From assembly GCA_903920865.1 (NCBI GenBank), contig CAIXNN010000003.1, forward strand, positions 1 to 39,229: 39,229 nt of DNA, in the 5' to 3' direction. This DNA is from an uncultured Actinomycetes bacterium. Lineage in GTDB: Bacteria; Actinomycetota; Actinomycetes; UBA12327. Within the stretch, counting starts at the first letter, position 1, and each line of letters begins with the position of its first letter. The position numbers and the translations under genes were made by a program. Positions 15,657-30,068 of this stretch are shown in pieces. The notes under the pieces are model-generated. The model was not told where the DNA came from, made no database searches, and was given only the letters and a program-made list of their open reading frames with translations.

Positions 15657-16933
15657 GCCGGCTAAGCAACCTTCGAACCACCCTGTTGGCGGATATAACG
15701 CCATTGAAAGTGTCCGTTGATTTTCGTCGGATCTTTTTCAGTCAATTAGTTTCGCAAATCGGCACGCAGATGACCGCCGTTGTCATCATTTTGCAAATCT
15801 TTGACATAAGTCGCTCAAACTTTGCCACCGGCTTAGTTGGCGCCGTTGCTTTTGTGCCGATGGTTGTTGGTGGCTTGTATGGCGGCTCAATAGCTGATGC
15901 ACGTGACCGTCGTGCAGTGGCCTATTGGACGACATCAGCCTTGGCCGGCGTCTCATTAATTTTTGCTGGCATTGCCTACACAGATCTGCGCGTCTTGTGG
16001 CCGCTGTACTTACTGATCGTTGGACAAACCTGGTTGTCGGCTATTGCTCAACCAACGCGGATGGCGATCATTCCCCGACTTGTTGGGGCTGAGCTGCTGC
16101 CAGCAGCTAATGCTCTTGCACAAATTTCTTGGAATATTGGATTCACCATCGGCCCTGTCATCGGCGCAACGATTGCAAAGAGTTACGGCTTTGGGTGGGC
16201 CTACCTGGTGGATGCGATTTCCTTTGGTGGTGCTGTTTATGCCTACTGGAGGCTTCCACCAGTGCCACCGGATGGGGCAGCCGGACATAAGGCCGGTTTC
16301 AAGTCCGTTCTTGAAGGTTTGAAATTTCTCAAGGGGCGAGACAACGTCTCGATGACTTTCTATGTCGACATTGTGGCGATGGCTTTTGGAATGCAACGAG
16401 TGTTGTTCGCATCAATTCCGCTTGCTTTTTATGGCTTAGTAGTCGTTGGTCTTGGTCCGGTGAACGTTTCCTTGAGCGGATTACTTTTTACTGCTCCAGC
16501 GCTGGGGGCCGTTATCGGCGCTGTTGGTTCTGGATGGTTTTCTCGAGTTCGTCGCCAAGGTCTTGCAGTGGTGATTTCAATTCTGGTGTGGGGCGGAGCA
16601 ATTTGTCTTTTCGGCCTCACTCATCAGTGGTGGCTCGGTTTGCTTTTCCTTGCAGTTGCAGGAGCCGCCGACATGGTCTCAGCCGTATTCCGAAACACAA
16701 TTTTGCAAGCTGCAACACCTGATGCCATGCGAGGTCGACTCCAAGGCGTGTTGATTGCCGTTGTCGCAGGTGGCCCTTACGTCGGGGACTTTAGAGCTGG
16801 CGCCATTGCGGAGTGGTTCGATGTTCGTTTAGCGGTGGTCAGTGGCGGGATTTTGTGCATCGTGGGGGTTTTGGCGCTGGTTGCTTGGCGTCCTGGGTTC
16901 CTGCGCTACGACGCTTGGCACCCAGTTCCATAA
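15653..16933 (+). CDS. MFS transporter, enterobactin-exporter (EntS)-like
   Basis: A 426-residue major facilitator protein with about 12 membrane helices. FRRIFFSQLVSQIGTQMTAVVIILQIFD and GGSIADARDRR (the loop 2-3 motif, D-x-x-D/R-R-x) fit the MFS_3 group containing EntS-like exporters, and AVVAGGPYVGDFRAG is a typical late block. The substrate is unknown. The GTG start overlaps the pdxH stop (GTGA), so the two are translationally coupled; this might suggest export of a vitamin B6-related or other small compound, but that is only inference from position. Confidence 0.85.
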   Translation: MSRLSNLRTTLLADITPLKVSVDFRRIFFSQLVSQIGTQMTAVVIILQIFDISRSNFATGLVGAVAFVPMVVGGLYGGSIADARDRRAVAYWTTSALAGVSLIFAGIAYTDLRVLWPLYLLIVGQTWLSAIAQPTRMAIIPRLVGAELLPAANALAQISWNIGFTIGPVIGATIAKSYGFGWAYLVDAISFGGAVYAYWRLPPVPPDGAAGHKAGFKSVLEGLKFLKGRDNVSMTFYVDIVAMAFGMQRVLFASIPLAFYGLVVVGLGPVNVSLSGLLFTAPALGAVIGAVGSGWFSRVRRQGLAVVISILVWGGAICLFGLTHQWWLGLLFLAVAGAADMVSAVFRNTILQAATPDAMRGRLQGVLIAVVAGGPYVGDFRAGAIAEWFDVRLAVVSGGILCIVGVLALVAWRPGFLRYDAWHPVP

Positions 16934-16972
16934 TTTGGCCCAAATCTTGCGGGTTGCAGTGAGGTGGGCAGG

Positions 16973-16978
16973 TACTAT
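16973..16978 (+). promoter_or_regulatory. Candidate -10 (TACTAT) for the giant surface-protein gene
   Basis: TACTAT lies 40 nt before the ATG at 17019. It predicts a start near 16985 and a leader of about 34 nt carrying GAGAGG at 17004-17009. No convincing -35 is visible. Confidence 0.45.
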
Positions 16979-17018: not shown

Positions 17019-20000
17019 ATGAAACCCTTTGCGCGTAGGAATCGTCGCGCCTGGGTGGCTACTTTTGCCACCCTCAGCACTCTTGCGGGTTCATTAACTC
17101 TGGGAGCTGGTCCAGCCGCAGCCATTGGACCAGGCATTTCTGTAAGTCAGCAAGTCTCCTCAGCAGTTCTCGTGGGTCAAGACGCCTCCTTCACTCTTAC
17201 AGCCAGTAACCCGAATGTGCCACTTGCGCTAACGCAGTACAACGTCAGCTTCCGAACTGAATTGCCGCTAGGTGTTACCTACAAGGCAGGAAGTACTTCA
17301 CCTTCCTCCGATGGCGAACCCACCGTTGTGACCGATCCGGTTACCGGTCAACAAACGCTGATTTGGTCCAACGTGGCCGATGTTCAAATTGGAAGCTCGT
17401 TTGCAATTTCTTTTAAAGCAACCCCAGATCCGGCGACGCTGAGTGTGGGCTGGTCTTTCGATACGACCAGTCAGGCTTTTGCAAGTAGTGATCCCCGGTT
17501 GGTTCCTAAGTTTGATGCCGTTGGCGACCCCGTGGCTGGTGCGACGATTAATTCTGCGCAGACTTCACCGACCACCACCCAAGTCACAGCCATCACTGTT
17601 GCTAAGTCTGAACCGAGTCCGGAGGGTGAGTTAGTCCGGGGAGTGCACAATCACTCAACCGTTTACACGCTGACTGTCACGAACAATGACGAACATGCCA
17701 CGGACTTAGTTTTGGTTGAGGATTACATCCCTGCCGGCCTTGAATTCCTTGGCTGTGGTGGCGTGGATAACAGCGATGGCGTTGAGTACTCCGGTGCTGC
17801 ATCGTTGAGTGCAACCCCTGTGATCCCGGCGGCTAACTGCCCCACGCCCACTCGGGTTGAAACTGTCACGAATCCACCTGCTCAGGGATCAACGGTTTAT
17901 CCCGCTGGGGTCTATACCAAGGTCACCTGGTCTCTCGGCAATTTCGCGGCCAGTGGAGTCAAGACCATTAAGTACCGCGCAGGTATCCCGTTGCAAGCCA
18001 ATACGGCCACATTTGTTGGTGGGGCTCCAAGTCCAACAAGCCTGGATCAGATCGCCAATCTCGATAACAACACCGGCGCCTCAACGCGAGAAACTTCAAG
18101 TGAGCAAGCGCTGACAAATATTGCGCGCGTATCAGGCACCTACACCGGTCCAGTCGCGCCCACCGCAAGCACTCAGGTGGCCAGCGATGGTAGTTACACC
18201 GTTACTGCTGAAGACATCGCAATGCAAAAAAGTGTTAGCCCTACCTCTTTTACTGCTGGTGGCATTGCGACATTTACCTTGACCGTGCGGGTCAGTGAGT
18301 ATGTCGATGGGTCAGCCATTGTTTTGACCGACACCTTGCCCGATGGCATGTGTCCGCTATCGAGTTCAACAAACTTCTCTGACGCTTCGGTACCTGCATG
18401 TGATCCTGTTGCCGGTTCTGACCCAACAGGTGGATCCTTCTCCAGCATCACGCAACAAAGTGATGGCACTTTCGCCATGACGTTTAATGACCTGACTGTT
18501 GATGCCGATGGCGTGGCCGTGGTTAGTTTCAAAGCAGCCATGCTGGCCAACTACCTCAGTAATGGCGACCCGGTGGTTGCCGGCGACTCGGTTGTCAATA
18601 ACGCTTCGTTGACCGGAACCACTTCGCCCATTGCGGGAACCAGTGAGTCGGGAACCCAAACGGTCTATGACGTTTCATCGGCTCGGCTGACTACGTCAGC
18701 CTTGAGCATTGAGAAGAAGATCAAGCCAGCATCTGATCCCTATGAATGCGGAACCGGCCCGTACGTTAAACCGCCGACTGCTGGTTATTCGGCAAAAGAT
18801 TTCATTTTTGCTAAGGGATCACGGATTTGTTTCGAGCTCAACGTCACTTTCCCCACATCGACCGATTCTCGAAACGTTGTCATTAATGACGTGCTCCCTG
18901 ACGGCACGGTCTATGAGGCCGGCTCCCAGAGCACCGTGGTTAGCCCCACCTTTGATGTGACATTTAATGAAGCAGATGCTGCAGCTGACACGCAGTTCCC
19001 AACCTGGACATTGGGTAACACCATTGGCGGGGCTGCCTTTGTTCCAGCAGGTTCACGTTTTAAGGCTTATATCGGCGTAATCGTTACTCGGGCGTCGAAC
19101 AAGGCAGCAGTTGATCTCACTGACAACTTGATGAAGATGCGGTCGGAATCAACGGCCGGCACCGTGGTTTCTTATCGCGACAACGTTGGGTTCGGCATTG
19201 CGCCGGTTACTCCACTTGAAATTACCAAGGGCATAGCAACCATTACCGACGGTGCAGGAGCGGTTGATTCACTCAACCCACTCAACCGACCTGCCACCAA
19301 CGTCGATGATGAGGCAGTCGTCCAAGGCGATCGCGTTAAGTTCCGAGTGGACTTAAAGAATGCGGGCGTTGCAGGGGACGGCAATGCTGCGCCCATCAGG
19401 GGAACAGATGTTTGGGATGTGTTGGCACCCGGGATTACTTGCGCCCAGGTTTGGGCAATTTCGGCAGTTAGTAGTGCAGCGCGAGCTCCAGTTGGCGCTT
19501 GTACCAATCCTGGCGATGTTGATCAGCCTACGTTCGCCGGAAGTGGCACCTTAAGCGCTATTCGTTGGACCTTCCGCAGCGGTAGTGAAGATGAAATCTT
19601 GCCTGGGGCAACGCGCACCTTGAGTTATGACGTGCTGATTCCAACGCCAACCCGCGCCGGCGCAGACTTAGTTGACACCGCAAACGTGCGCTCGTATGAG
19701 GTCTTCAACGATCAAAGTGATGAGTCGACGACCTATTTCCCCACCAACAACATTGATCCATCGGTTCCCGTTGAGGATCAACGTGTTGGCGATTTGTCAG
19801 ATCCATCAAATGTCTTCCTTGTTGATACGTTCCTTAAGAAGGAAGTGATCAGCACTGGCGTCACCGATGCTAATAACACTGAACTGACCCAGGCTGTCAA
19901 TGGCGAGTCTGTGACGTATCGTGTCGGTTTGACCGTACCGGCGCGAACTAGTGTCTTCAATGGGGTGATCACTGATCCGCTACCCACCGGAATTACGTTC

Positions 20001-23000
20001 ACAAGTTCAAGCGTGAAGTTTTCTTCAACAGGTGTATCTCCGGCCACCGGAAATCTGCCAGCCGGATTTACTTTTAATGCGTTGGCTGGGACTTTGACCT
20101 TCCCCGCTACCTATACCAATTCCAGCTCCACCGACGATCTTTTCGAGATCACGATTGTGGCCAAAGCCTCACCCACTACTGGCGTGGGTAAAAAGACCAA
20201 TACCGCCAGCTTTGCCAGTACCGACACCGTGACCGGCTCTGCGCTTGCTCCCAAGACGGCAAACTCTGTCATCACAGTCATTCGCCCCGCACCGACATTG
20301 GCCAAGACCAACGATTCCACCGGAACGGTCCTGGGTGATCAGGTAGTGAAGTATCAACTTCGGGTAGAAAATGCGGCCAAGCGCCCAACCCTGTTTGATT
20401 CCCAAGTTGTTGACTGTGTCCCAGCGGGTCTGATCTTCCAAAGTTACTTACCGCCAACCTCGGGTACCACTTCGCCTGCAGTTCCTGGTGATGGAACCAA
20501 TGGTTGCGCGGTGGGGACGACGAAGTTGTCCTGGACCATTGGCGCGGTCGAAGCCGGAGTTGCAAAGACGGTCGAATATACGGTCAAGGTGACTAGTCAA
20601 GCAGTGGGAAATGCTTCGTACACGAACACCGCCACTTTGGTGGGCAGCACGTTGGATAACGGGGTTAATGACGCGGCTCTTGAGTATGTCTTTGGTTTGA
20701 ATGCGACCAACACCGTCAAGGTGGCCGGCGCAACCATCAGTAAAACTGTCACACCAGCTGCTCGCACCATTGGCCAAGTTGCCACGTTTACTGCAACCAC
20801 GACTTTGCCGGCGAATGTTAATTTCTACAACCTGTCCATCACGGACAAAATTCCAGCAGGCTTTGATCGCACCACTTTGACCACCGACACGGTGAGTTGC
20901 ACAAATGCCGATGGGTCTGATTGCAATCTTGATCCCACCGAACTAACTCCGATTGCTCAGCTAGATGGGTCCACTAAGGCTGCTTGGCTGTTTGGCGATG
21001 CCCGGGCTAGTGCCCAAAGGCGCACGATCAAGGTGACCTACTCCTTGCAGGTCAAGGACCTCACAGGAGTCAATCGCAACTCGGTCTTAGTCAACAGTGC
21101 GGATGCTCAGTGGGACCGAGCACCGTCAACACCGCCAACCTCAGCCGATTATGTCTACACCGACAAGACCCCGATTCCTGCCACAGCAAGTGTCACAGTG
21201 CAAGAGCCGCTGCTGTCGATAGACAAGCGAGTCAATGACTCCACGCCAGGTCCTGGTCAACTTTTCACGTACACAGTCAAGGTGTCGAACTCCTCTGCTG
21301 CCAATGTCAGCACTGCGTACAACACATCGGTGACCGACACGATTCCGGTAGGCGTTGTTATTCAAACGCCGCTGCCACCGGGTGCAACGCTTGCAGGAGT
21401 TGGACCAAATGGCGGCGGAACGATTACCTGGGTACCAACAGGAAACATTCTTCCCGGTGGATCGGTGACGTTGACCTACACAGCGTTGTTAGCCAATTCG
21501 ACAACGTTGAATGCAACGCCGCTGACAAATACAGCTGACATCACTTCGTATCGCAGTCAACCCGGTGGTGGACGTGTCTATGACGGGCCAAGTGATCCAG
21601 CCACACTCACCCCGGCATTCCCGGCCTTCACTGTCACCAAGACCGCGCCTGAGGGCGGCCTTGCGTACATCAATGATGACTTCCGTTGGAACATTCAGGT
21701 CAAGAACACCGGTAAGGCCGATGCCTTTGACGTTGATGTCAACGACGTTCTGCCTCCCAATTGGCGATACGTCGCCGGTTCGGCGTTGGTCAGTGTGGCC
21801 AACGGAGAATCCATTGCCCTTGAGCCAAGTAGTTCGACCATTGTGGGCGCTGTTCAGAGCCTGACCTTTGCCAACGTGGGTGACTTGGCAGTGGGTGAGT
21901 CCATCGTTATCAAGCTGACGGCCAAGCCACTTCCTGCGGTGGTTTCCACACCAGGGGTTGGATCGTCAACGCAGCACACCAACAGTTCCACTGCTAGGGG
22001 TAATGACGCTACTGGGCATGATCACAATGCAGATGGCCCGTACACCGACACGGATACGGCGAATGCGCACGTTGATAGTGCTGATGTTCAAATCGTCAAG
22101 TCCCATACGAGTCCAGTGGTTGCTGGTTCCACATTTAGCTGGAAACTTGATGTCAAGAACAACGGTGCAGATACCGCAGTCGGCCCGTTTGTTGTCACCG
22201 ATGAAGTTCCTTCTGGCCCGACCTTGGTCAGTGCCACGGGTACTGGTTGGTCCTGTGTTGTTGCCTCTCGCCAGGTCACGTGTGAGCGCACCAATGGAAC
22301 CAATACGTTGGCTTCCGGGGCTTCCTTCCCCTCCATCGTCTTGAACCTGCGCATCGCGGCCAATGTTGCTTCAGCAACGACGTACTCCAACACCGGTTCG
22401 GTCACTGATCGCACGTACGATCCTGATTCAGCTAACAATTCATCAACCGATGAGGTCACAGTGGCTACATCGGCAGACCTCAAGGTCACCAAAGGGCTCA
22501 GTGGTTCGATGGTCGCAGGGCGAAATGCCACGTACACGCTCGATGTGAGTAATCGTGGCCCATCGGTATCCCGTGGCACGATCACCGTGACTGATCTGGT
22601 ACCCACAGGTACGACCTTTGTCAGCGCCAGCGGTGTTGGTTGGTCGTGTTCGCAAGACGCCGGCACGATTTCGTGTGACCACTTAGCTGATCTTGATCCC
22701 AGCACTGCCGCGGGCCAAATCAAGGTGGTGCTGGCCGTTGATTCTGATCGCACCGGTGCAGTTGTCAACGCTGCACACGTGACCGGTCCAACCTCCGATC
22801 CTGATCTGACTAATAACGACAGTGAAGTCACCACCACCCCACAAACATCGGCCGACCTGATCCTCACCAAGACCTCTACCGGTTCAGTGATAGCTGGGAC
22901 TACGGCCACCTATCGATTGGTGGTCAAAAATCTCGGACCATCGAGTGCGCAATCAGTAACGATCAATGACACCTTGCCAACCGGCGGAACGTACGCGAGC

Positions 23001-25616
23001 TTTAGTTCGTCCACCGGTAGTTGGAGTTGTTCGGTCAATGCTGGAACTGTGACCTGTGACTTAAGTGGGGCGCTGGCCAGTGGTGCCTCGGCAGAGGTTG
23101 ACCTCAACGTTGATATTGCCTCGGGGGTAGTGGGCAATATCGCGAATACCGCGGCTGTAACGTCCACAACGACAGATCCCAATCCCGATAACAACACCGA
23201 CACGGACAATTCCCTGTTCACGGCGAAGGCCGATTTGCAGATTGTCAAGTCGCACACCGGTGACGGGGTTGCTGGTGAAAATATTTCGTTCACTTTGGCT
23301 GTGAAGAATAACGGTCCTTCAGATGCTGAAGCCTCAATCGTGGTCAACGATGTCCTGCCGGATGGTTTGAGTTTCGTATCAGCAAGTGGTTCTGGTTGGT
23401 CATGTTCGGCCGACGGGGCAGAGCTGACCTGCACTCGCAGCACCACTTTGATCAGCGGGGCGAGTGCGCCTTTGATCACGGTTGTGGCAAGCATCGATCC
23501 ATCGGCGGGTCCGTCATCGCTGTTCAACACGGCCACAGTTACTTCAACGACCACGCATGATCCGGATCAGGAAAACAACACATCAACAGATGAACTTGTC
23601 GTCAATGATTCGACTGATTTGACGATGACTAAGACCACCACAGGGGCAAACCCGGTCAAGGCCGGTCAGCGCACCGAGTTCTCCATCGTTGTCACCAATC
23701 AAGGGCCATCAACCGCAGATGATGTGATTGTGGAAGACACCTTGCCATCCACGTTCAGCGACATCACTATCGATGACAATGGGTGGACCTGCGGACCGGT
23801 GGCGGGCAACAAGATTCTCTGCCGGCTTGCAGAGCTCGTCCCTGGAACTTCACCGACGTTGCAAATCTCGGCAAAGGTCAATCCAGATGTTGATCCAGGT
23901 TCTACGTTGACCAATACCGCGTCAGTGACTACCACTACTCCTGGTGATGACCCGGCAGACAACTCAGATGAGTCAACAGTTGGCGTTCAAACAACTGCAG
24001 ACTTGGCCATCACCAAGTCCGTACCAGACTCAAGAGTTGAGGCAGGTGACTCGGCGCTTTACACCTTGGCTGTCCACAACAATGGGCCATCAAATGCTGC
24101 CGCCGACATTGTCATAACCGATACCCTGCCCCCGAACTTAACTTTTGCTGACAGCGTCGGTCCTTGGGACTGTGTGCCAGGTGCTGTCAACGGCTCAGGC
24201 CAGCTAGTCAGCTGTACCTTGCAGGGAAGTTTTGGCATTCCAGCTGATGGCGATGCGCCGGATCTGCAAATTCTGGTTGACATCAACTCCGCGGCAGATC
24301 CTGGCACGTACACCAACAGCGCACAGGTGAGTTCACCAACGGCTGACCCCGACTCTTCGAACAACACCGATGAAGCAGGCCTTAACGTGGGTCGCAAAGT
24401 TGATCTGGTGACGACCAAGTTGCACACCGGCGATGTGAAAGTCGGGGAAGATCTAACCTTCACAATCCGCGTGACAAATAACGGACCATCTCAAGCCCGC
24501 GCCGTTACCTCTACTGACACCTTGCCCACCGGATTGCAATTTGTTTCGGTCAGCGGTGACGGTGATTGGACCTGCGGGCAGGACAGCGGTGTCATCTCGT
24601 GCGACCTTGGCGCTCCACTGGATGCTTTGGCCTACGCCGAGTACACCGTGAGTGCCAAAGTTCTGCCGAGTGCTTATCCGTCGGTCACCAATACTGCGAC
24701 GGCTCAATCTGATATTCCAGATTCCAATGAGTCCGATAACACCGGCACAGATCAGGTAGATGTGCCCGCACTGGTTGATCTGAGTATCGCTAAATCACAC
24801 AGTGGGGTCTTCAAAGTTGGCACCCCTGGCACCTACGCGATCAAAGTCACCAACCAAGGTCCGACCGCAGATCCAGGACCGATCACTGTGACCGACACCT
24901 TGCCCAATGGTTTGACCTTCAATTCTGGCACCGGGACGGGATGGAGTTGTTCGGCAGTTGGGCAGGTACTCACCTGCACTCGGACCGGATCCTTGGGAAT
25001 TGATGCGAGTTCAACGGTGTCTGTGAAGGTCAATGTCTTGGCATCAGCAGCACCTGGCGTGACAAATAGTGCGACCGTGTCAACGCCGAGCGAAGATGTA
25101 GATCCGAGCAATAACACCGATGAGGATCCAACGATTGTTCAATCGGTTTCTGGATTGAGCATCCAAAAAGATGCGATTTCCTTTACCGGGACAGCCGCGA
25201 AGTATCGAATCACGGTGACCAACAACGGTCCGAGCACAACAACCACGCAGATCATCATTAAGGATCAGTTGCCCGCACAGCTGACCTATGTCGCCTCCGA
25301 TGGCTACTTCTGGGCGTGTGGCGCTGTTGGTCAAACGCTGACGTGCACCAACGATCAGCCACTTACGGTGGGCTCGTCCACCTCGGTGGTGATCTCCACA
25401 TCGGTCAAGGCCGGTGCAACGGGAACCATTAAGAATGTGGCCACGGTAAGTGGCGGTAACACTGACCAGGTGGCCACCGCAACCGATGATGCCGTGATCA
25501 ACGTCCCAGAAAAATTGGCACACACTGGTGCCAGCATCCTTGGCACGCTGATCTTGGGCTTGGTCTTTATCGGACTTGGTTTGAGCCTGCGATTGCGCCG
25601 TCGCTCCATCGGCTAG
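17019..25616 (+). CDS. Giant secreted DUF11-repeat surface protein with LAxTG sortase anchor
   Basis: 2865 residues. The N-terminus (MKPFARRNRR, a hydrophobic core, then GAGPAAA) is a signal peptide to about residue 35. It is followed by about 19 tandem DUF11-type domains, Ig-like beta folds with the pattern K-S ... Y-x-(V/L)-x-V-x-N-x-GPS ... D-x-LP-x-G. Ten N-terminal domains, starting near residues 40, 192, 400, 562, 733, 938, 1092, 1238, 1399 and 1537, are long and diverged (138-208 residues). Nine C-terminal domains, near 1689, 1820, 1946, 2072, 2200, 2328, 2462, 2587 and 2712, are regular (125-134) and most carry W(S/T)C plus a second Cys. The end is LAHTG (2833-2837), a membrane helix, then RLRRRS: a cell-wall sorting signal of the sortase E type. 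The frame opens at 16842 inside the MFS gene; the ATG at 17019 with GAGAGG fits the signal peptide. Probably a cell-wall stalk or adhesin. Confidence 0.9.
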   Translation: MKPFARRNRRAWVATFATLSTLAGSLTLGAGPAAAIGPGISVSQQVSSAVLVGQDASFTLTASNPNVPLALTQYNVSFRTELPLGVTYKAGSTSPSSDGEPTVVTDPVTGQQTLIWSNVADVQIGSSFAISFKATPDPATLSVGWSFDTTSQAFASSDPRLVPKFDAVGDPVAGATINSAQTSPTTTQVTAITVAKSEPSPEGELVRGVHNHSTVYTLTVTNNDEHATDLVLVEDYIPAGLEFLGCGGVDNSDGVEYSGAASLSATPVIPAANCPTPTRVETVTNPPAQGSTVYPAGVYTKVTWSLGNFAASGVKTIKYRAGIPLQANTATFVGGAPSPTSLDQIANLDNNTGASTRETSSEQALTNIARVSGTYTGPVAPTASTQVASDGSYTVTAEDIAMQKSVSPTSFTAGGIATFTLTVRVSEYVDGSAIVLTDTLPDGMCPLSSSTNFSDASVPACDPVAGSDPTGGSFSSITQQSDGTFAMTFNDLTVDADGVAVVSFKAAMLANYLSNGDPVVAGDSVVNNASLTGTTSPIAGTSESGTQTVYDVSSARLTTSALSIEKKIKPASDPYECGTGPYVKPPTAGYSAKDFIFAKGSRICFELNVTFPTSTDSRNVVINDVLPDGTVYEAGSQSTVVSPTFDVTFNEADAAADTQFPTWTLGNTIGGAAFVPAGSRFKAYIGVIVTRASNKAAVDLTDNLMKMRSESTAGTVVSYRDNVGFGIAPVTPLEITKGIATITDGAGAVDSLNPLNRPATNVDDEAVVQGDRVKFRVDLKNAGVAGDGNAAPIRGTDVWDVLAPGITCAQVWAISAVSSAARAPVGACTNPGDVDQPTFAGSGTLSAIRWTFRSGSEDEILPGATRTLSYDVLIPTPTRAGADLVDTANVRSYEVFNDQSDESTTYFPTNNIDPSVPVEDQRVGDLSDPSNVFLVDTFLKKEVISTGVTDANNTELTQAVNGESVTYRVGLTVPARTSVFNGVITDPLPTGITFTSSSVKFSSTGVSPATGNLPAGFTFNALAGTLTFPATYTNSSSTDDLFEITIVAKASPTTGVGKKTNTASFASTDTVTGSALAPKTANSVITVIRPAPTLAKTNDSTGTVLGDQVVKYQLRVENAAKRPTLFDSQVVDCVPAGLIFQSYLPPTSGTTSPAVPGDGTNGCAVGTTKLSWTIGAVEAGVAKTVEYTVKVTSQAVGNASYTNTATLVGSTLDNGVNDAALEYVFGLNATNTVKVAGATISKTVTPAARTIGQVATFTATTTLPANVNFYNLSITDKIPAGFDRTTLTTDTVSCTNADGSDCNLDPTELTPIAQLDGSTKAAWLFGDARASAQRRTIKVTYSLQVKDLTGVNRNSVLVNSADAQWDRAPSTPPTSADYVYTDKTPIPATASVTVQEPLLSIDKRVNDSTPGPGQLFTYTVKVSNSSAANVSTAYNTSVTDTIPVGVVIQTPLPPGATLAGVGPNGGGTITWVPTGNILPGGSVTLTYTALLANSTTLNATPLTNTADITSYRSQPGGGRVYDGPSDPATLTPAFPAFTVTKTAPEGGLAYINDDFRWNIQVKNTGKADAFDVDVNDVLPPNWRYVAGSALVSVANGESIALEPSSSTIVGAVQSLTFANVGDLAVGESIVIKLTAKPLPAVVSTPGVGSSTQHTNSSTARGNDATGHDHNADGPYTDTDTANAHVDSADVQIVKSHTSPVVAGSTFSWKLDVKNNGADTAVGPFVVTDEVPSGPTLVSATGTGWSCVVASRQVTCERTNGTNTLASGASFPSIVLNLRIAANVASATTYSNTGSVTDRTYDPDSANNSSTDEVTVATSADLKVTKGLSGSMVAGRNATYTLDVSNRGPSVSRGTITVTDLVPTGTTFVSASGVGWSCSQDAGTISCDHLADLDPSTAAGQIKVVLAVDSDRTGAVVNAAHVTGPTSDPDLTNNDSEVTTTPQTSADLILTKTSTGSVIAGTTATYRLVVKNLGPSSAQSVTINDTLPTGGTYASFSSSTGSWSCSVNAGTVTCDLSGALASGASAEVDLNVDIASGVVGNIANTAAVTSTTTDPNPDNNTDTDNSLFTAKADLQIVKSHTGDGVAGENISFTLAVKNNGPSDAEASIVVNDVLPDGLSFVSASGSGWSCSADGAELTCTRSTTLISGASAPLITVVASIDPSAGPSSLFNTATVTSTTTHDPDQENNTSTDELVVNDSTDLTMTKTTTGANPVKAGQRTEFSIVVTNQGPSTADDVIVEDTLPSTFSDITIDDNGWTCGPVAGNKILCRLAELVPGTSPTLQISAKVNPDVDPGSTLTNTASVTTTTPGDDPADNSDESTVGVQTTADLAITKSVPDSRVEAGDSALYTLAVHNNGPSNAAADIVITDTLPPNLTFADSVGPWDCVPGAVNGSGQLVSCTLQGSFGIPADGDAPDLQILVDINSAADPGTYTNSAQVSSPTADPDSSNNTDEAGLNVGRKVDLVTTKLHTGDVKVGEDLTFTIRVTNNGPSQARAVTSTDTLPTGLQFVSVSGDGDWTCGQDSGVISCDLGAPLDALAYAEYTVSAKVLPSAYPSVTNTATAQSDIPDSNESDNTGTDQVDVPALVDLSIAKSHSGVFKVGTPGTYAIKVTNQGPTADPGPITVTDTLPNGLTFNSGTGTGWSCSAVGQVLTCTRTGSLGIDASSTVSVKVNVLASAAPGVTNSATVSTPSEDVDPSNNTDEDPTIVQSVSGLSIQKDAISFTGTAAKYRITVTNNGPSTTTTQIIIKDQLPAQLTYVASDGYFWACGAVGQTLTCTNDQPLTVGSSTSVVISTSVKAGATGTIKNVATVSGGNTDQVATATDDAVINVPEKLAHTGASILGTLILGLVFIGLGLSLRLRRRSIG
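22083..25505 (+). repeat. Nine regular tandem DUF11 units, period about 375-402 bp
   Basis: Units begin at about 22083, 22476, 22854, 23232, 23616, 24000, 24402, 24777 and 25152, always at a D-L-x-(I/V)-x-K type strand (the last unit starts G-L-S-I-Q-K). Spacings are 393, 378, 378, 384, 384, 402, 375 and 375 bp, all multiples of three. Each unit boundary carries an Asp/Asn-rich linker such as DPDSANNSSTDE. The copies are clearly related in protein but well diverged in DNA, so this is an old expansion. Confidence 0.85.
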
Positions 25617-29204: not shown

Positions 29205-30068
29205 ATGAGTTTCAAGGTTTTTTGGCCTGGAGTCGTGACTTTAACCTTTGTTGCTGGGACCTTGTTGGTGCCATCAAGTGCGATGGCTGTTGACCCCGCA
29301 CCAACAACTCCACCCCCAGCGACCACACCGAGTACGCCAAGCCCGACGCCAAAACCGACGCCAAGGCCAACCCCAAAACCAACACCACTAAATGCATGTC
29401 AGGTGGCAGCGATAGCAAAGAAGACCACGGCCTCTCGTCCCTTTTATCGAGCAGCCACCAAGCCAGGTATGAGGGATGGTGGGCCGTTCGCCATTAACCA
29501 TGTGCGTGAAGCCCAATATCGACTTCGTTGGGCCAAGGTTTATTCCGGTTCGGTCAATGGTCGTTACGGGTCTTCGACGAAGGCAGCTGTTAAGCGTTTC
29601 CAAGCCGGAAACTGTTTGCGGGCCACCGGAGTTTTGGACACTCCCACGTGGGCGGTATTGATCCAGCGAACTGTCCGCAATCGAGCTGCCATTCCCAAGA
29701 TCTGTAAGTCAGCTGGCTGGCACTCCTGCTATGACCGCGCTTCCCATCAAGACTTTTTGTTCGTCAACGGCAAGATGTTCAATGTGTGGTTAGTACGTGG
29801 TGGGATGTATTCATCGCAGACCCGCACCGGAAATTACGCGGTCCAGGCACGGTATCGCGAGAAAGTCTCGACCCTGTATCACGTAAAGATGTATTACTTC
29901 ATGCCTCATTCTGGGGGCGAAGGGCAGCACGGCTCGGGCTTCATGGTTGATCCTTGGACTGGTCACTCCCATGGCTGCATCAACATGTACATCAAGGACG
30001 CAAAGGTGCTCTACACCCTCTCGGCCGGCAAGCGCCTGAATGTGACGGTCTACGGGCACTGGTCCTAG
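29205..30068 (+). CDS. Secreted L,D-transpeptidase (YkuD) with Pro-rich linker and peptidoglycan-binding domain
   Basis: A 287-residue exported protein. The signal peptide ends near residue 28 (SSAMA/VD). Residues 30-61 are a Pro/Thr/Lys linker (PTPKPTPRPTP) of the kind that spans the cell wall. A PG_binding_1-like domain (about 98-153, with VNGRYGSSTKAAVKRFQ) precedes the YkuD catalytic domain (about 182-284), which has HGSGF (242-246) and SHGCINM with His256 and the nucleophile Cys258. It should make 3-3 peptidoglycan crosslinks or attach proteins to the wall. The ATG at 29205 has GAAGGG 7 nt upstream; the frame extends to a TTG at 29190. It lies 88 nt after the NlpC/P60 gene and may share its riboswitch-controlled transcript. 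Confidence 0.93.
   Translation: MSFKVFWPGVVTLTFVAGTLLVPSSAMAVDPAPTTPPPATTPSTPSPTPKPTPRPTPKPTPLNACQVAAIAKKTTASRPFYRAATKPGMRDGGPFAINHVREAQYRLRWAKVYSGSVNGRYGSSTKAAVKRFQAGNCLRATGVLDTPTWAVLIQRTVRNRAAIPKICKSAGWHSCYDRASHQDFLFVNGKMFNVWLVRGGMYSSQTRTGNYAVQARYREKVSTLYHVKMYYFMPHSGGEGQHGSGFMVDPWTGHSHGCINMYIKDAKVLYTLSAGKRLNVTVYGHWS

Follow-up and report, generated by a model that had tools for sequence, protein, structure and literature searches.

A 19-unit DUF11 giant protein of a freshwater actinobacterium as a candidate sortase-E-anchored fibrillar adhesin with a conserved head

The domain known as DUF11 (PF01345) was renamed CLIPPER in a 2025 survey, and one such domain has been solved (9IFR); inside the domain, a Lys and an Asn are joined by an isopeptide bond in partnership with an Asp, and the bond makes the domain more resistant to heat and proteases (PMC12617251). 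The giant protein analyzed here resembles the CLIPPER fibrillar adhesins of that survey in its signal peptide, tandem DUF11 units with Lys-Asp-Asn, disulphides, and C-terminal sorting signal (PMC12617251). It differs from them in that no adhesive domain is recognized, the 19 units correspond one to one across families, and units 1-2 form a conserved head at the N terminus that has no name so far.

Class E sortases accept LAXTG in the Streptomyces coelicolor chaplins (PMC5148588) and act on LPVTG in SspA, CwpA, and CwpB of Actinoplanes missouriensis (PMC13251363). Our protein is like these substrates in its LAxTG/LPxTG-helix-basic tail and in the presence of a class E sortase in the genome, but CwpA and CwpB have only 337 and 436 residues, and SspA has been described as intrinsically disordered (PMC13251363), whereas here a 2865-residue Ig-like chain is found. 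A third relative is the RrgB-type pilin backbone (TIGR04226), which matches in three stretches. In contrast to such pilins, fibre length would be set in one polypeptide and not by polymerization. No class C (pilin) sortase or pilin gene cluster lies beside the giant gene, and the only sortase-family matches in the genome are a class E enzyme and a degenerate one.

The gene lies in a window of 39,229 nucleotides (the whole stretch of DNA analyzed) from a freshwater actinobacterial lineage close to acAMD-2. A sequence-only reading had placed a frame of 2865 residues with a signal peptide at 17019-25616; translation bore this out, and the earlier description proved correct in its main points. The features are as follows, in window coordinates:

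16951..16978, + strand: putative promoter, GGGTTG - 16 nt - TACTAT; the arrangement recurs in the related genome G004 (GGGTTG-16-TATTAT)
17019..25616, + strand: giant surface protein gene, 2865 codons plus stop, stop-free translation
17019..17123, + strand: signal peptide, aa 1-35, ending at 17123; basic n-region, hydrophobic h-region, AxA
17130..17588, + strand: unit 1, aa 38-190, the free N-terminal end; no Pfam match, no isopeptide triad
17589..18206, + strand: unit 2, aa 191-396, with K196-D235-N367 and C246/C274; best-conserved unit on average, candidate head
18207..22079, + strand: units 3-10, aa 397-1687, long DUF11/RrgB-type units of the head and upper stalk (Pfam, TIGR04226, orthologue alignment)
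22080..25514, + strand: units 11-19, aa 1688-2832, nine tandem DUF11/CLIPPER units of the lower stalk, each with K-D-N and a Cys pair
25515..25613, + strand: cell wall sorting signal, LAHTG, hydrophobic helix, and LRLRRRSIG (preceded by K); LPXTG_anchor match

With the ATG at 17019 as start, the protein begins with a basic n-region, a hydrophobic core, and AAA before I36, and the signal peptide is probably cleaved after AAA35. This layout is identical in the orthologues. An alternative GTG start at 16842 would overlap the upstream MFS gene. The giant gene stands alone in its neighborhood, with pdxH and the MFS transporter gene upstream and a photolyase gene on the opposite strand downstream. 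The claim that it has its own −10 element is plausible: GGGTTG-16 nt-TAYTAT, shared with G004, may be the promoter, and we grade it no higher because a scan for the sigma-70 consensus before the gene returned no site. Over units 1-6, the orthologues of G001 and G004 give a dN/dS of ∼0.12 from small counts, and by this comparison we judge the gene to be real and under purifying selection. Elsewhere in the window, ARAGORN calls a tRNA-Ala at 29280-29371 (− strand), which overlaps a Pro/Thr-rich tandem repeat just past the signal-peptide-like start of a secreted-protein ORF; the call is probably a false tRNA.

The division of the protein into 19 units is our own segmentation. It gives 10 long units of 139-206 residues each (aa 38-1687), followed by nine tandem DUF11 units of 122-134 residues each (aa 1688-2832). 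Pfam DUF11 covers 13 stretches (659 bits, E 4.6e-202), and NCBIfam recognizes both a DUF11-type repeat and the RrgB-type isopeptide-forming domain (TIGR04226, E 1.6e-60, in three stretches). The sequence-only reading had counted about 19 DUF11 domains. The number of Ig-like units agrees with this count, but not all of them are DUF11 by Pfam: 14 pass the gathering cut-off (2, 3, 7, and 9-19), units 4, 5, 6, and 8 score weakly beneath it, and unit 1 has no Pfam match. A Lys-Asp-Asn triad is present in 17 of the 19 units, the exceptions being unit 1, which lacks the Lys, and unit 5, which reads K-D-D. Fifteen Cys pairs are found, and all of them are retained in G004 and G005 wherever sequence exists.

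A profile built from units 11-19 had a sole significant match in the PDB, 9ifr (E 5.3e-6), with its Lys, Asp, and Asn columns in line with those of the solved domain; a phmmer search of the PDB with the full-length sequence gave no match. Structure prediction of a unit pair had been suggested as a check, and the AF2 model of units 14-15 (pLDDT 93) placed the Lys on the first strand, the Asn on a late strand, and both Cys on neighboring strands. For residues 1-700, with three close sequences as input, AF2 reached a pLDDT of only 40. Foldseek searches with the unit pair also returned integrin alpha legs and assorted viral proteins, which we rejected as kin since the likeness is that of a generic beta-sandwich.

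The C terminus carries the LAXTG-type motif, hydrophobic helix, and basic tail expected from the sequence-only reading (LAHTG...LRLRRR), and the NCBI LPXTG_anchor model matches it above its cut-off. We relied on this model because a DNA pattern for LAxTG is uninformative alone, with 147 sites in the genome and 208 in a reversed control. The window holds no sortase gene, as had been stated. The anchoring proposal had been staked on a sortase E gene in the genome, and one is present: the host genome (G000; 1.68 Mb, 92 contigs) contains two sortase-family genes, one of which (L001) scores 229 bits against the class E model NF033747 (cut-off 160). Its nearest PDB entries are 5go5/5go6 (sortase) and 5cuw (SrtE1); the catalytic His (AGHR), Cys (TTC), and Arg (RLIV) align with the SrtE structures, as does the HY-motif Tyr. 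L001 adjoins trpG and a PASTA-domain gene, both named from sequence.

Among the orthologues, the motif is LAETG in G003 and G004 and TAKTG in G005, and the five full-length proteins from other families end in LPRTG, LPHSG, LPDTG, LPSTG, and LPSTG. Since class E enzymes are documented on both LAXTG and LPVTG, this mixture of tails is compatible with one enzyme. A class E sortase match was obtained for each of the nine head-bearing genomes from other families that we checked, and in seven it exceeds the cut-off. Together, the class E sortase, the LAHTG/LAETG tails of the genus, and the LPxTG-like distant tails support the sequence-only view of a sortase-E-anchored surface filament, and the giant protein is probably linked covalently through sortase E.

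Several further sortase-related genes were observed. In one of the other-family genomes (L103, G380:C1), a class E sortase-like gene adjoins the giant gene on the opposite strand, near record 3598565-3599179, unlike the arrangement in the genome of the window. The second sortase-family gene of the host (L002, G000:C55, 1165-2127), which is flanked by genes for an Ig-like protein and a pstB-like product, encodes a sortase-fold membrane protein with counterparts L043, L044, and L045. The catalytic His is replaced by Arg, and the Cys by Ala or a Gly-flanked Ala in all four genomes; judged by these residues, it is a conserved dead sortase. A second DUF11 surface protein of ∼1241-1253 codons adjoins enolase (L083, G000:C60:40000-47000; L086, G001:C1). 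The G000 copy ends in an LPKTG tail and the G001 copy in LANTG, thus an Ala/Pro exchange at the sortase motif between orthologues. A third protein with a sortase tail (L069, G000:C39:11255-11335; ∼257 codons, LPKTG-helix-basic tail) is the top LPXTG_anchor match of the genome.

Comparison of repeat number between relatives had also been proposed, and the 19 units are kept in G004, in G005, and in five orthologues from other families. The G004 orthologue lies on two overlapping contig pieces (70-73% identity) and that of G005 on two pieces abutting at residue 1180 (53-56%). Joined by alignment, the pieces cover the protein end to end in both, and all 19 units are present without additions. From G001 and G003, the giant gene is represented by fragments only. 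A class-wide sample of 395 genomes, searched for the head (units 1-2), yielded matches in 10 genomes outside the family, one of them weak. In five of these genomes (L101-L105), ORFs of 2816-2896 codons align end to end with the giant protein at 38-45% identity. The sequence-only reading had stressed one of the longest filaments of a small-genome-style bacterium; this emphasis is misplaced, as the same-length orthologues occur in high-GC actinobacteria with genomes of 3.4-4.2 Mb and the protein is thus not peculiar to small genomes.

Each unit was placed separately on each orthologue, without a multiple alignment, and 16 to 18 of the 18 steps were in order, the out-of-order placements being confined to the similar units 11-19. 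For units 1-10, the orthologous score was 134-515, compared with 71-110 for the best-scoring non-corresponding unit in the same protein. The K-D-N triad is retained in 16 units in nearly all of L101-L105, as are nearly all Cys pairs. Beyond this class, the head is found elsewhere in the phylum at 38-47% identity, in frames of ∼1500 to 3730 codons, which are lower bounds where frames run off contig ends. Several of these relatives carry units 1-6 or 1-8 in order, after which the stalks diverge. No plasmid record was found with the head, and a shallow look recognized no conserved neighbor genes around the other-family orthologues. One relative (L008, CAMCVY010000076.1) is titled Bifidobacterium breve, yet its protein is 97% identical over units 1-6 to that of actinobacterium acAMD-2, and the label looks wrong.

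The domain, the anchor, and the kind of protein are already known; the uncommon parts are the constant 19-unit plan and a scarred loss of the gene, described below. We tentatively propose, with somewhat less than even confidence, an unrecognized, phylum-wide family of actinobacterial giant surface fibres with a common head (units 1-2, often to unit 8). In part of the class Actinomycetes, its members would share a constant 19-unit plan whose units each occupy a fixed, conserved position and are not interchangeable stalk beads. Our search of the open-access literature found no description of a phylum-wide head with a 19-unit plan constant across several families, which is a weak negative.

Within this plan, unit 2 stands out. 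It is 70% identical in G005 and 51-56% identical (mean 54%) across the five full-length orthologues from other families, where unit 18 is the runner-up with a mean of 49%; in one of the five, L101, units 11 and 18 are slightly above unit 2. In the more distant relatives, the top score always comes from unit 2. Between G001 and G004, units 2-4 are almost without amino acid changes (dN/dS 0-0.04, 0.04 for unit 2, compared with 0.12 over units 1-6), again from small counts. No recognized adhesive domain is among the Pfam hits of the giant protein. This counts only weakly against adhesion, because >90% of predicted fibrillar adhesins with known stalk domains likewise have no known adhesive domain (survey, PMC9210967). 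On the grounds of conservation, unit 2 is the best candidate for the working part and the most likely one to bind a ligand or partner.

The sister species G002 has lost the gene. There, the MFS and photolyase genes lie 68 bp apart on one contig, and the 68-bp junction (L130, G002:C96, 1427-1494) keeps ∼26 bp from around the gene start and ∼30 bp of the gene end. The two matches score 42 and 40, whereas shuffled sequence reached at most 28 and 22. The two corresponding sites of G004 share the 8-bp direct repeat GCGCGTGC, and in L130 the two remaining gene ends are joined at a direct repeat like GCGCGTGC. G002 is also without most of the leader. The scar is known from a single contig of a draft assembly. 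Because it retains both gene ends, it points to deletion and not original absence; the gene was once there and was lost between short direct repeats. The giant gene is dispensable in G002, and the clean loss shows nothing more.

We consider the giant protein to be probably a fibrillar adhesin that is anchored by sortase E and carries a conserved head. It has the layout of such adhesins, namely a signal peptide, a long stalk of repeated domains, and a surface anchor. From these parts we infer that the signal peptide would export the protein and that the 19 Ig-like units would fold as a chain, most of them locked by an Asp-catalyzed Lys-Asn isopeptide bond and by a disulphide. If each unit is counted as 4 nm, as a rule of thumb, the extended chain would measure ∼75 nm. 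The class E sortase would process the LAHTG tail and so anchor the protein to the wall, leaving the conserved head at the free end, where unit 2 is predicted to bind a ligand or partner. As far as the sequence can tell, attachment is the likeliest of the roles suggested in the sequence-only reading; predator defence and phage binding are unsupported. Against the adhesin reading count the TAKTG tail of G005 in place of LAxTG, the sister species without the gene, and the negative search for a known adhesive domain, with no Pfam match for unit 1.

The main alternative is a structural coat fibre, a spacer or armour of constant length, such as a bristle layer against predators, phages, or drying, in which the head would serve assembly. 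Although identity between families is down to 38-45%, all 19 units persist with little change in length, which fits a structural part of fixed length better than the usual stalk of an adhesin, and the search for a known adhesive domain was negative. However, in other classes the same head sits on differing stalks, so that length is not fixed across the phylum, and conservation is higher in unit 2 than along the stalk. We regard a coat fibre as unlikely, if still the strongest competitor of the adhesin.

That the tail is a membrane anchor alone, with the sortase not processing the giant protein, seems quite improbable. The G005 motif is what speaks for it; the LPXTG_anchor score, a class E sortase with its catalytic residues, LAHTG/LAETG within the genus, and LPxTG at the matching position in all but one of the five full-length orthologues from other families, the exception having LPHSG, all speak against it. 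Least credible of all, and to be given very little weight, is a main role as phage receptor or in phage defence. Prominent surface proteins commonly serve as phage receptors, and the clean deletion in G002 resembles a possible escape from a phage using the giant protein; but a costly non-essential adhesin would be lost likewise, and no phage link was found.

Repeat-built adhesin stalks commonly differ in repeat number, as repeats recombine. Unlike these variable stalks, the protein sorted here as a probable fibrillar adhesin keeps 19 units in the same order in five other-family orthologues and in the pieced-together relatives of its genus and family. This constant plan, with the best-conserved unit near the tip, singles out a definite candidate for the part that binds and lets the contributions of length and head be compared, and the scarred G002 offers a natural knock-out for comparison.
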